Below are positions 2,076 to 6,259 of a DNA stretch of 20,057 nucleotides, one piece after another. The DNA is from a virus, in the IMG/VR virus record IMGVR_UViG_3300046011_003336, positions 1 through 20,057 of that record. One strand, given 5' to 3'. The position numbers were made by a program, and so were the translations under genes. Every line of letters starts with the position of its first letter. The stretch's first letter is position 1. Below the pieces are notes generated by a model. It saw only the letters and a program-made list of their open reading frames with translations. It searched no databases and was not told the DNA's origin.

Positions 2076-2441
2076 ATGGACATGAGTGAAGACCTTATCA
2101 AGATGATGCTTGAAAAAGGATACATTGAAGAGGTTGGGCAGAATCCGGTTGGAGACCCTTTATATAAAATAACGGAATTATTTTACACGGAGCAGGCTGA
2201 CCTTGTACAATGGATGCGAGAGCAAGATTCCGATATACTCAGTAGCCTTTGGTTCAAAGGATACATAGATCTTAAAATGTCTGAAGGTGGACTAGGTTTT
2301 GTTTATCTTACAGACAGGTCAGATACATGGGTAGACGCGGAGGATCTTACTGTTGATGAAAAATCTATGATGTATCTTATTTACAGCACAGGTTCTTACT
2401 TTGGAGGTAACCCAGACTATGGATACGAGGAACGTGATTGA
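2076..2441 (+). CDS. Hypothetical protein, possibly winged-helix-like
   Basis: A 121-residue acidic protein follows the large terminase by 2 bases. I do not recognise the family. It begins with a short helix-rich segment (EDLIKMMLEKGYIEEVG) that resembles part of a small winged-helix or helix-turn-helix unit, and a similar phrase recurs (SSLWFKGYIDL, about residues 56-66), which could reflect an internal repeat of about 50 residues. The C terminus is aromatic and acidic. ATG at 2076 and ATG at 2082 are both possible starts; neither has a strong Shine-Dalgarno sequence. The 3' end overlaps the next gene by 23 bases and carries that gene's ribosome binding site. Function cannot be stated. Confidence 0.75.
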   Translation: MDMSEDLIKMMLEKGYIEEVGQNPVGDPLYKITELFYTEQADLVQWMREQDSDILSSLWFKGYIDLKMSEGGLGFVYLTDRSDTWVDAEDLTVDEKSMMYLIYSTGSYFGGNPDYGYEERD

Positions 2442-2946
2442 CTATTACAAGGAATGGGAAAATGATCAGATCAAGGCGGATCTAGATACAAAGAGACTCC
2501 CATTTGTTGTAGGTTTTGAAAATATCTCTGGTGATTTTAATAAAGCATCTGGAATAAGAAATAGTAATGCATTTCTTGCAAAAGAATCTTGGATCATTGG
2601 TAATAAGAGATGGGATCGCCGTGGAGCGGTTGGCACCCAAAACTATATACACCTAAAGTACTCCCCAAGCCTTGACCATATATACCTTAATGAACCACAT
2701 ATTAGAGATATGCGATGGGTGGCAGTTGACAATGTTCCTGGAGCCATTCCAATTACACAGTATGACTGGGCTCCAAATACATTTATGATATTTGGAGAAG
2801 AGGCTAGAGGAGTTAGCCCCATGGGGCTTGGCATGGCAGATGATGTTGTTATGATTCCTCAACTTGGTAGTGTTAGAAGCCTAAATGTTAGCGTTGCAAG
2901 TGGCATCATAATGTACGACTACGCCACAAAACTTGGAATGCTATAA
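2419..2946 (+). CDS. SpoU/TrmH-like RNA 2'-O-ribose methyltransferase
   Basis: This 175-residue protein carries the signatures of the SPOUT-class SpoU (TrmH) family, which forms a trefoil knot and transfers a methyl group from S-adenosylmethionine to a ribose 2'-OH in tRNA or rRNA. Motif 2 is IFGEEARGVSP (residues 124-134), and motif 3 is MIPQLGSVRSLNVSVASG (145-162), with the conserved SLNVS core. The motif 1 region, around residues 35-52, keeps the conserved Asn and Arg (N36, R47). I chose ATG 2419 because GGAGGT lies 10 bases upstream at 2403-2408; a TTG at 2401 is in frame but less likely. It is a single-domain minimal form with no extra N-terminal RNA-binding domain. Placement near phage tRNA genes suggests a tRNA target, but host tRNA or rRNA is also possible. 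Confidence 0.85.
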   Translation: MDTRNVIDYYKEWENDQIKADLDTKRLPFVVGFENISGDFNKASGIRNSNAFLAKESWIIGNKRWDRRGAVGTQNYIHLKYSPSLDHIYLNEPHIRDMRWVAVDNVPGAIPITQYDWAPNTFMIFGEEARGVSPMGLGMADDVVMIPQLGSVRSLNVSVASGIIMYDYATKLGML

Positions 2947-2952
2947 TTAATC

Positions 2953-3087
2953 ATGGAAATATGTTCATTTTGTGGTAAGGAAGCAAAGTGGTACGGTAGT
3001 AGAAAAGGCTCAATGCTTTATGTCTGCGAAATACATTTTCAAGCATATTACATAAATCTTTCAGATTGGAATAGAATAGATGGCTGA
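2953..3087 (+). CDS. Small zinc-ribbon protein
   Basis: This 44-residue open frame begins 6 bases after the methyltransferase gene and overlaps the next gene by 8 bases. It has a CxxC pair at residues 4 and 7 (CSFC) and a CxxH pair at 25 and 28 (CEIH), the spacing of a one-metal zinc ribbon. The rest is aromatic and basic. Overlap at both sides of a compact phage gene run, and the intact metal-ligand pattern, support it as real. The role is unknown; small zinc ribbons of this type are common in phage genomes and may bind nucleic acid or protein. Confidence 0.7.
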   Translation: MEICSFCGKEAKWYGSRKGSMLYVCEIHFQAYYINLSDWNRIDG

Positions 3088-3454
3088 ATCGTATATCCCA
3101 ACAGACTCTATGGCTTCAAATGCGAGGCGCGGACTCGCTCTTAGAGATGAGTTTAATCGTGGAGGCACCTCAGTAGGAATTGCAAGGGCTAGAGACATTT
3201 CTAATAAAAAGAATCTAAGCGAGTCTACAGTATTAAGAATGCACTCATTCTTTAGTCGCCACGCGGTTGATAAAAAGGGCAAGGGGTGGAGTCAGGGTGA
3301 AGAGGGCTATCCTTCTAATGGCTTGATCGCATGGCTACTTTGGGGCGGAGACTCAGGTAGATCCTGGGCGGAATCAAAAAGAAATGCTATTATGAGAAGG
3401 AGAGAGCAGTCCAATAAAATGTGGAAGTCTTCTGCTTTCGATATAACCGAATAG
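3080..3454 (+). CDS. Conserved phage head-region protein
   Basis: This 124-residue basic protein belongs to a recognisable phage type with the pattern ARRGLALRDEFNRGGTSVG near the N terminus, followed by RARDI, a serine-rich helix (TVLRMHSFFSRH) and the closing GYPSNGLIAWLLWGGDSGRSWAESK. Similar domains occur alone or joined to prohead proteases in actinobacteriophages, usually near head genes; the biochemical role is not established to my knowledge. The start at ATG 3080 overlaps the upstream zinc-ribbon gene by 8 bases. The C-terminal codons contain a TATAAC hexamer (3442-3447) that could serve as a -10 element for the RNA island downstream. Confidence 0.8.
   Translation: MAESYIPTDSMASNARRGLALRDEFNRGGTSVGIARARDISNKKNLSESTVLRMHSFFSRHAVDKKGKGWSQGEEGYPSNGLIAWLLWGGDSGRSWAESKRNAIMRRREQSNKMWKSSAFDITE
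3442..3447 (+). promoter_or_regulatory. Candidate -10 hexamer ahead of RNA island
   Basis: TATAAC lies in the last codons of the preceding gene. Initiation 6 to 8 bases downstream would start RNA at about 3454-3456, just before the 13-bp inverted repeat at 3458. No good -35 is seen, so this is weak support. Confidence 0.3.
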
Positions 3455-3457
3455 ACC

Positions 3458-3559
3458 CCGATGTGCCAGCAATGCCGAGTTACGCGGTTGATTCCAGTAT
3501 GAAGTTAGTCAAACGTGCAGAATTCCTTGGGATGGTTTGGTTACCCGCTGGCACATCGG
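3458..3559 (+). ncRNA. Candidate structured RNA: 13-bp perfect stem with 76-nt loop
   Basis: The arms at 3458-3470 (CCGATGTGCCAGC) and 3547-3559 are exact reverse complements over 13 bases and enclose 76 bases. The element ends 3 bases before tRNA-Gln. The loop contains smaller pairing options (CCG/CGG at about 3474-3487 and TTGAT/GTCAA nearby). I could not fit a cloverleaf on either strand, so it is not an ordinary tRNA. A short open frame runs through it, starting at ATG 3472, but it has no ribosome binding site and runs into the tRNA. A perfect 13-bp pairing at this distance is not expected by chance in 20 kb. Confidence 0.5.
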
Positions 3560-3562
3560 TTA

Positions 3563-3633
3563 TGGAGAATGGTGTAATGGCAGCACAAATGTCTTTGGAA
3601 CATTTAGTTTAGGTTCGACCCCTGATTCTCCAG
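3563..3633 (+). tRNA. tRNA-Gln (anticodon TTG)
   Basis: The 71-nt cloverleaf has a 7-bp acceptor stem (TGGAGAA at 3563-3569 with TTCTCCA at 3626-3632), discriminator G at 3633, a short D stem (GTG/CAC), an anticodon stem AATGT/ACATT, anticodon loop 3593-3599 with TTG at 3595-3597, and a T arm with loop TTCGACC (3614-3620). The leading T and discriminator G are typical of bacterial tRNA-Gln. No CCA is encoded, so it must be added after processing. The D stem is only 3 bp plus a wobble pair. Confidence 0.92.
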
Positions 3634-3650
3634 CGATTGTTCGAATTGTA

Positions 3651-3665: not shown

Positions 3666-4100
3666 ATGACTGTTAAACAATGTAGGGTGTGCGATAAAAC
3701 GAAATCTTTAGAGGATTTTTGCAAAGATAAAAGCATGAAAGATGGAAGAAGAAACATTTGCAAAAGATGCCATACAGACTATATGATTAATTATTATAAA
3801 AATAATCCAGATAAAACAGCGGCTAAAAATAAAATGAACACTAAATTTGTTCCCGCATGGAAAAGACACCACTTAGATGAAAGTGTCTATCTAGATATGT
3901 TAAATAAACATAATGGATTATGCCATTCATGTAAAAATAATAAGGCTCAAGTAATAGATCACGATCACTCATGTTGCAAAAAAGATAGATCTTGCGGAAA
4001 GTGCGTCAGAGGTCTACTGTGTAGACAATGCAATCTTGTTCTTGGGATTCTTGAAGAAGATAAAAGCAAGATAAAAAATTTGCTTAATTATATTAGTTAA
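3666..4100 (+). CDS. Endonuclease VII-type HNH endonuclease
   Basis: This 144-residue protein matches the recombination endonuclease VII family (His-Me finger/HNH fold). An N-terminal zinc knuckle has CxxC pairs at C6/C9 and C32/C35. The catalytic region has CHSC (86-89), the DHDH active-site segment (98-101) and RGLLCRQCN (115-123). Family members are either Holliday-junction resolvases of phages or free-standing homing nucleases. It lies between two tRNA genes, 32 bases after tRNA-Gln and 5 bases before tRNA-Asn, with its own apparent leaderless promoter. That layout fits a mobile nuclease gene that entered a tRNA cluster. The extra N-terminal zinc knuckle is common in free-standing phage copies. 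DNA target unknown. Confidence 0.88.
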   Translation: MTVKQCRVCDKTKSLEDFCKDKSMKDGRRNICKRCHTDYMINYYKNNPDKTAAKNKMNTKFVPAWKRHHLDESVYLDMLNKHNGLCHSCKNNKAQVIDHDHSCCKKDRSCGKCVRGLLCRQCNLVLGILEEDKSKIKNLLNYIS

Positions 4101-5544: not shown

Positions 5545-5570
5545 TAATGTTGCCGCCCAAGGAGGTCAAT

Positions 5571-6194
5571 ATGACGACAAAAAACCAAATTGGTTTGGCA
5601 GTAGATTGGATTGCCGCTGTAGTTTTGGCAGCCACTCTAATTGTCGCACCAAGTATGGCGTATGCTAAGTCTGCGCCCTTGGCGGATAGTGCAGGGAATC
5701 CTGTCACCGCTGATGCACAAGAAAGAAAAGCAGAGAAAGAAAAGGTTTGGACATTACCAGAAAAATGTAATGACAAGCCATCTAAAATTCTTTTTAAGGC
5801 AGGATTTACAAAGCCTGGAATGCTTAGAGGAATGTGGGCTATAACCTGGAGAGAATCTAAGCACCAGAACCTTGATGAAGGTTCCCCATGGTATTCAGGT
5901 GCTCTAGGATGGGCACAGATACAGACGAGTGCATGGTCTGGAAAATCATGGTGGTCTAGGTCTGCAATGCTAGATAGATACCAGCAGTCGGTCATTGTTA
6001 AGAAACATTTCTTTGACAAGGGACTGATGCATAACTGGGGATATGGATATTCCCATAAAAAAGATACATGGTACGTTGATGCAGGTATGTATTACTCCCT
6101 TTGGGGATCAGGATTGACATATTCATGGGTAATTGCACCATTCAATACTGGATGGTCTTTATTCCCTGGAAAATGTACTCCTAAAAAGGTATAA
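5571..6194 (+). CDS. Secreted lysozyme/transglycosylase-like protein
   Basis: This 207-residue protein has a signal peptide: a short basic N terminus, a hydrophobic segment at about residues 8-30, and a probable cleavage site AYA-K near 32. The mature part resembles lytic transglycosylase and lysozyme-like domains, with a candidate catalytic glutamate in WRESK followed by SGALGWAQI, the usual E...S.ALGW/GL.Q arrangement. It is rich in tryptophan. The likely substrate is host peptidoglycan. An exported enzyme with its own promoter might take part in lysis or in envelope remodelling, rather than being a virion component. I chose ATG 5571 because AAGGAGGT at 5559-5566 precedes it by 4 bases; the in-frame ATG at 5547 lies upstream of that site. 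Disulfide-capable cysteines are present (C61-type and near the C terminus). Confidence 0.72.
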   Translation: MTTKNQIGLAVDWIAAVVLAATLIVAPSMAYAKSAPLADSAGNPVTADAQERKAEKEKVWTLPEKCNDKPSKILFKAGFTKPGMLRGMWAITWRESKHQNLDEGSPWYSGALGWAQIQTSAWSGKSWWSRSAMLDRYQQSVIVKKHFFDKGLMHNWGYGYSHKKDTWYVDAGMYYSLWGSGLTYSWVIAPFNTGWSLFPGKCTPKKV

Positions 6195-6204: not shown

Positions 6205-6259
6205 ATGGTATGGCGGGGGAAACACAATAAAATGTGCGGCAACACCCCCGCCATACCGT
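6205..6259 (+). promoter_or_regulatory. Strong GC-rich stem-loop in 5' leader of glycosyltransferase gene
   Basis: GGTATGGCGGGGG (6207-6219) pairs perfectly with 6245-6257, with two further outer pairs (A-T and a G-T wobble). The 25-base loop can form a 4-bp CACA/TGTG inner hairpin. No T tract follows, so an intrinsic terminator is unlikely. It ends 8 bases before the GGAG ribosome site at 6268-6271. Confidence 0.65.

Follow-up and report, generated by a model that had tools for sequence, protein, structure and literature searches.

What is the perfect 13-bp inverted repeat that stands directly in front of a tRNA gene in this phage genome, and what might an RNA closed by it do? The window, i.e. 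the whole stretch of viral DNA that was analysed (a 20-kb record of 20,057 nt), encodes a terminase 61% identical to that of Streptomyces phages (e.g. Gilson). A preliminary description made from the letters alone had singled out the repeat as a candidate novel non-coding RNA, and its geometry is confirmed: the 13-nt arms at 3458-3470 and 3547-3559 are 100% complementary and 76 nt apart, and the second arm ends at 3559, three bases before tRNA-Gln(ttg) begins at 3563. The accompanying guess that chance would yield such a repeat in a few per cent of cases was correct, as perfect 13-bp inverted repeats whose loop does not exceed 110 nt turned up in 12 of 300 dinucleotide-shuffled versions of the window (4%); the window itself holds two such repeats. 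The features of the locus are:

3458..3559, + strand: type I RNA element, 102 nt, between an ORF stop codon and a tRNA, position conserved
3458..3470, + strand: 5' arm of P1, the closing stem, from the repeat search; two-sided changes in relatives
3547..3559, + strand: 3' arm of P1, 3 nt upstream of tRNA-Gln
3475..3479, + strand: 5' strand of P2, CCGAG, pairing with 3526-3530 by fold and alignment
3526..3544, + strand: motif 1, CUUGGGAUGGUUUGGUUAC, antisense to 23S rRNA 1910-1929 (helix 69 and 3' flank)
3514..3520, + strand: motif 2, CGUGCAG, antisense to the CUGCACG block at about 1962-1968 of 23S rRNA
3563..3634, + strand: tRNA-Gln(ttg), by ARAGORN and Rfam
3080..3454, + strand: ORF matching phrog_2859, its UAG stop 3 nt upstream of P1 in every type I copy

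Relatives of this type I element, found via the terminase, the upstream ORF and the pattern, carry the same element in the same place, 3 nt past the UAG of the phrog_2859-like ORF and mostly 3-5 nt upstream of a tRNA. Across 18 related phage sequences P1 is paired throughout, with no broken cell and two-sided changes at 5 of its 13 pairs; the arms thus pass the check for compensatory change that had been proposed for them. P2 (CYGAG/CUURG) is paired in 90% of cells of the same 18 sequences and has two-sided changes at 2 of 5 pairs, so that P2, together with a small hairpin, is partly supported by comparison. RNA fold z-scores were -2.6 for the window and -2.5 to -5.8 for relatives. Judged by this covariation, the inverted repeat is the closing stem of a conserved structured RNA. 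A coding sequence was considered too and rejected, the reading frame being broken in relatives by indels and a conserved UAG (GGUGUAGUU).

Neither type I nor the type II form described below matched any of the 4227 families of Rfam 15 above the gathering threshold, weak chance matches aside. This covariance search, suggested at the outset, together with the covarying stem, bears out the call of a novel RNA. The suggested tRNA-like identities (aberrant, intron-bearing or permuted) found no support, with ARAGORN and Rfam matching the neighbouring tRNA only and no cloverleaf family. The tRNA downstream of type I elements varies between Gln, Asn and Pro; in one lineage the next tRNA lies 51 nt away with a promoter-like sequence of its own, in another 287 nt away. 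A guide for processing of the tRNA transcript, also put forward initially, is unlikely given these unrelated tRNAs, the gaps of 51 and 287 nt in two lineages and the frequent position of type II copies after a tRNA. Of note, an endonuclease VII-like HNH gene (window 3666-4100) is inserted between tRNA-Gln and tRNA-Asn, and near relatives lack it at this position.

Among the loci fetched first, a model of the element matched near relatives only, and a weak match led to the same core with its ends moved, referred to here as type II. In type II, CUUAGGAUGGU..GUUAC comes first and the GUGCAG block last, with a new closing stem between them; P1 is missing, and a closing stem of 11-14 bp is found where type I has a short linker. 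A motif pattern search brought many further type II copies, so that, after removal of one false type I, the distinct sequences number 39 for type II and 15 for type I. Together the two forms amount to about 50 different elements from uncultivated phages; most belong to the terminase lineage of the window and are packed against tRNA genes, and they share the invariant motif CUURGGAUGGUNNRGUUAC. Among the 48 non-truncated contexts with the exact motif, 43 (34 type II and 9 type I) are closed by a stem of 11 bp or more, as against 14 of 3000 random positions. Aligned copies demonstrate, at the level of sequence, that the RNA exists in two circularly permuted forms. The terminase is 59-69% identical to that of the window in most type II contigs that reach this gene, which indicates one broad phage lineage. 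As to cultured phages, a search of INPHARED by motif returned no copy of the element, nor was one present in the 42 kb that surround the terminase in Gilson and Paradiddles; PLSDB likewise yielded none, and two bacterial motif matches both lacked the stem.

Four further loci (L338, L364, L399 and L407) have CUUAGGAUGGU..GUUAC copies with GUGC nearby that are closed in another way, in some cases with terminators after them; they may represent a third permutation. Besides, a SpoU-family RNA methyltransferase gene (window 2401-2946) lies near the RNA in phages with the type I form and is rare in type II; the element as a guide for this phage methylase was discarded, the gene having been found at a single one of 41 type II loci, many of which are short. 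An 11-bp inverted repeat with a 40-nt loop was also seen 3 nt past a tRNA-Glu (L277, 12843-12904, in G001), with no conserved relative in G005.

The type II neighbourhoods point to the strand from which the RNA would be made. In many copies the 5' end lies 0-2 nt past a tRNA (for Ile, Met, Asn or Gly), and in several the 3' end is separated by 1-6 nt from the following tRNA on the same strand (for Pro, Asn or Leu), the layout expected for a gene excised by tRNA processing. Four copies without an upstream tRNA (L339, L362, L367 and L387) have sigma-70 promoters of the type TTGACA-17/18-TATAAT, agreeing with the consensus at 12 of 12 positions in L387 and 11 of 12 in L362, and in each the -10 box stops 6-7 nt short of the base with which the closing stem begins. 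Since this base is the expected start in all four, the RNA strand is that of the tRNAs. The TATAAC hexamer originally noticed at a suitable distance for RNA to begin at the stem did not hold up as a promoter: it lies at 3442, where the upstream ORF has its final codons, and 7 of the 16 distinct type I flanks listed lack it, so it is no conserved promoter.

What the core might recognise is suggested by the invariant motif, whose reverse complement resembles positions 1910-1929 of 23S rRNA, GUAACUAUAACGGUCCUAAG (helix 69 and its flank). Blocks flanking motif 1 match the antisense of 1931-1942 and 1963-1985, and the blocks follow each other as in the antisense of 23S rRNA both in type I (GUGCAG, linker, CUUAGG) and, read circularly, in type II. 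The reference was the E. coli 23S sequence, checked in the annotated genome, rather than that of the host. An earlier alignment with loose gaps placed 18 of 55 best matches within the region and was uninformative, and a windowed test was therefore used instead, in which the joined core segments of 26 representatives were matched, in antisense, against 23S 1906-1985 minus helix 71, with 278 other windows in both orientations as controls. On E. coli 23S this region ranked first for 25 of the 26 (z 3.9-10.3); in the exception, L164, 3 of the 278 windows outscored it.

Because motif 1 had been used to find the members, its conservation counts once, and the rest of the core was tested alone. Without motif 1, no window among 372 was better than 1931-1985 for 9 of 24 members (L333, L353, L397, L443 and L453, and type I L019, L089, L186 and L203); for 18 type II members, related and not independent, Fisher's method gave a chi2 of 134 on 36 df. 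L443 and L453 contain extended antisense blocks, CGUUACGC..GUGCAG..GGAUAUUU. The signal of the window's own element is moderate (9 of 372 windows score equally or higher), L337 and L447 are weak, and L304, L362 and L376 gave no 23S signal once motif 1 was left out.

The kinds of pairs are informative as well. In an alignment that gave G.U and A.C equal scores, 50 elements formed 1763 Watson-Crick, 238 G.U, 65 A.C and 178 other pairs with 23S rRNA; over 1930-1985 the G.U to A.C ratio is about 145:65, A.C being fewer there, not rare. The variable motif positions facing U1915, U1917 and U1926 are A or G only. Both the G.U excess and these positions are such as selection for pairing would leave behind, unlike a relic. 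For the window, the duplex of motif 1 with 23S rRNA is calculated at -24.7 kcal/mol, and the family departs from perfect antisense at two near-invariant points that call for an explanation, a G facing A1919 and a bulged G1922; motif 1 is partly involved in internal pairs, too. Taken together, these comparisons show, for the primary sequence, an RNA complementary to one region of 23S rRNA beyond chance.

We consider it somewhat better than an even bet, with a probability of roughly 0.55, that the element is a phage RNA acting in trans, which base-pairs with helix 69 of 23S rRNA and changes how the ribosome is used, the effect being conjectural. Such a phage-encoded, structured RNA of about 75-145 nt would be made from the tRNA strand and released via its own promoter and/or processing of the adjacent tRNA, namely RNase P cleavage at the 5' end of the next tRNA; in the window, the expected RNase P site of tRNA-Gln would free its 3' end. 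The long closing stem would shield the RNA ends, and the conserved core would offer two or three segments antisense to 23S 1910-1985, directed at helix 69 with its 3' flank and at the strands 1931-1942 and 1963-1985, with helix 71 skipped. Pairing would presumably involve 50S subunits that are free or still being made. Bridge B2a is formed by helix 69, which also contacts the tRNAs in the A and P sites; in vitro, 70S ribosomes no longer form once A1912 or A1918 has been modified by DMS (PMC1190176). Pairing at helix 69 should, by this result, disturb subunit joining or mark free 50S subunits. Conceivably, then, helix 69 (bridge B2a) would be opened or masked and the subunits kept apart; alternatively, translation might be altered during infection or this part of the rRNA shielded from attack. 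A bolder version, which we hold tentatively and at somewhat less than even odds, is that the permutable RNAs of this phage lineage base-pair with helix 69 and neighbouring strands of the host 23S rRNA to seize ribosomal subunits, be it to block or stage 70S formation or to shield the paired site from defence nucleases.

The complementarity might also be a relic or incidental, in a structured phage RNA with another job (a protein scaffold, a ribozyme or an sRNA with another target), which we regard as unlikely. Circular permutation is typical of compact folded RNAs, e.g. the hammerhead and twister ribozymes (PMC10085705), and would suit such an RNA, as would a core that is invariant and folds internally and the three type II members without 23S signal beyond motif 1. 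However, the 25 of 26 top ranks, the extended blocks of L443 and L453 and the G.U bias are hard to reconcile with a relic, and no ribozyme or riboswitch family of Rfam matched. Separately, a likeness of GGUAUAGUUACC to the hairpin ribozyme was dropped, since the partner AGAA strands are not conserved.

Less probable still is an element acting in cis, whereby RNase P cleavage at the tRNA would leave the upstream mRNA with a 3' end guarded from exonucleases by the stem 3 nt away. That type I always lies between a stop codon and a tRNA, a layout shared in relatives by a second RNA element of this phage (6207-6257, see below), fits this idea, but it explains neither the invariant core and its permutation nor the type II copies that have their own promoter or lie between two tRNAs.

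We give little credence to the opposite strand being the RNA, i.e. a small sense mimic of helices 69-71 that would serve as decoy for a ribosome-modifying enzyme or nuclease. The likeness of this strand to 23S rRNA itself does extend to the AACUA loop of helix 69 and to the GCACGAA block; yet promoters and tRNAs point the other way, and the G.U to A.C ratio of 238:65 speaks for the tRNA strand. Moreover, the inner closing stems, in pairing registers set with G.U permitted, contain about 18 G.U and no A.C when read on the tRNA strand, where A.C would be G.U on the other strand. An automatic count of stems extended by G.U versus A.C, dominated by outer unpaired bases, gave 28 versus 31 with 7 ties and was set aside in favour of the inner stems. 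Finally, an intrinsic terminator or attenuator ahead of the tRNA can practically be dismissed, for although L089-type copies have TTTT after the element and then a separate promoter-like sequence for the next tRNA, no U-run follows the stem in the window (TTATGG after P1) or in the majority of relatives; termination here would, besides, shut off the tRNA that begins 3 nt further on.

The window contains a second RNA of note, defined by two features:

5571-6194: lysin-like gene, its stop codon followed by the hairpin RNA
6207-6257: second hairpin RNA, following the stop of the lysin-like gene

The stem of this hairpin covaries strongly, and its internal loop GCGGCAAC is invariant. The exact complement of the loop, GUUGCCGC (window 5549-5556), lies directly 5' of the Shine-Dalgarno sequence of the lysin-like gene, a position that it keeps in all copies examined, even where the proteins are only about 30% identical. 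When the orthologous leaders of three long contigs were compared, the lysin-like gene alone stood out. The arrangement suggests translational control of the lysin-like gene by an interaction between its 5' and 3' UTRs, and the hairpin probably works like the 3'-UTR of Staphylococcus aureus icaR, which pairs with its own Shine-Dalgarno region (PMC3868564). The main element was likewise considered as antisense to a phage leader and rejected, with no conserved complement to a ribosome binding site within 12 kb or across the orthologous leaders of three long contigs. Like the main element, the second one often has a tRNA within a few nucleotides downstream (L015 11461-11511, L019 8408-8458, L313, L340 and L350), which is tRNA-Met or, in L313, L340 and L350, another tRNA.

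Phages are known to act on host ribosomes through proteins, whereas a phage RNA directed at rRNA by base-pairing is not known to us; nor did we find a description of one in open-access papers. An RNA aimed at helix 69, conserved in many uncultivated phages and kept in their tRNA arrays would, if true, represent a new kind of phage-host interaction and provide a natural reagent for subunit joining. Should the 23S link fail, the elements would still form a new permuted RNA family absent from Rfam.

Several known systems bear comparison. Like the hammerhead types I-III, the element has one core that is closed at different helices in different copies (PMC10085705), although, unlike the hammerhead, it matched no Rfam ribozyme. 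With the bacterial Y RNA YrlA it has in common a stem-closed RNA with a folded head; no YrlA match was obtained at the elements, and no Ro homologue in the fetched element loci. Of note, Ro-like RNA-binding protein genes occur in the tRNA region of the Streptomyces phages Gilson (L468) and Paradiddles (L469), a hint of Y RNAs there. The T4 RNAs C and D are small stable RNAs of unknown function encoded in the T4 tRNA cluster; by description, they resemble the element as phage-encoded stable RNAs of about 100-140 nt inside a tRNA cluster, and we are aware of no report of rRNA complementarity or permutation in them. The snoRNA and archaeal sRNA guides are, again by description, similar in being small structured RNAs with split antisense to conserved rRNA, whereas the duplex of the element would span most of helix 69. 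To our knowledge, rRNA modification guides of the snoRNA type do not occur in bacteria or phages, and no bacterial protein complex for a C/D or H/ACA guide is known to us. Lastly, 3'ETS-leuZ is a short spacer of a tRNA transcript that is freed by tRNA processing and acts in trans by pairing with sRNAs; the element proposed here would share this mode of release and action in trans, yet differs from it in being a structured, conserved and promoter-bearing gene.
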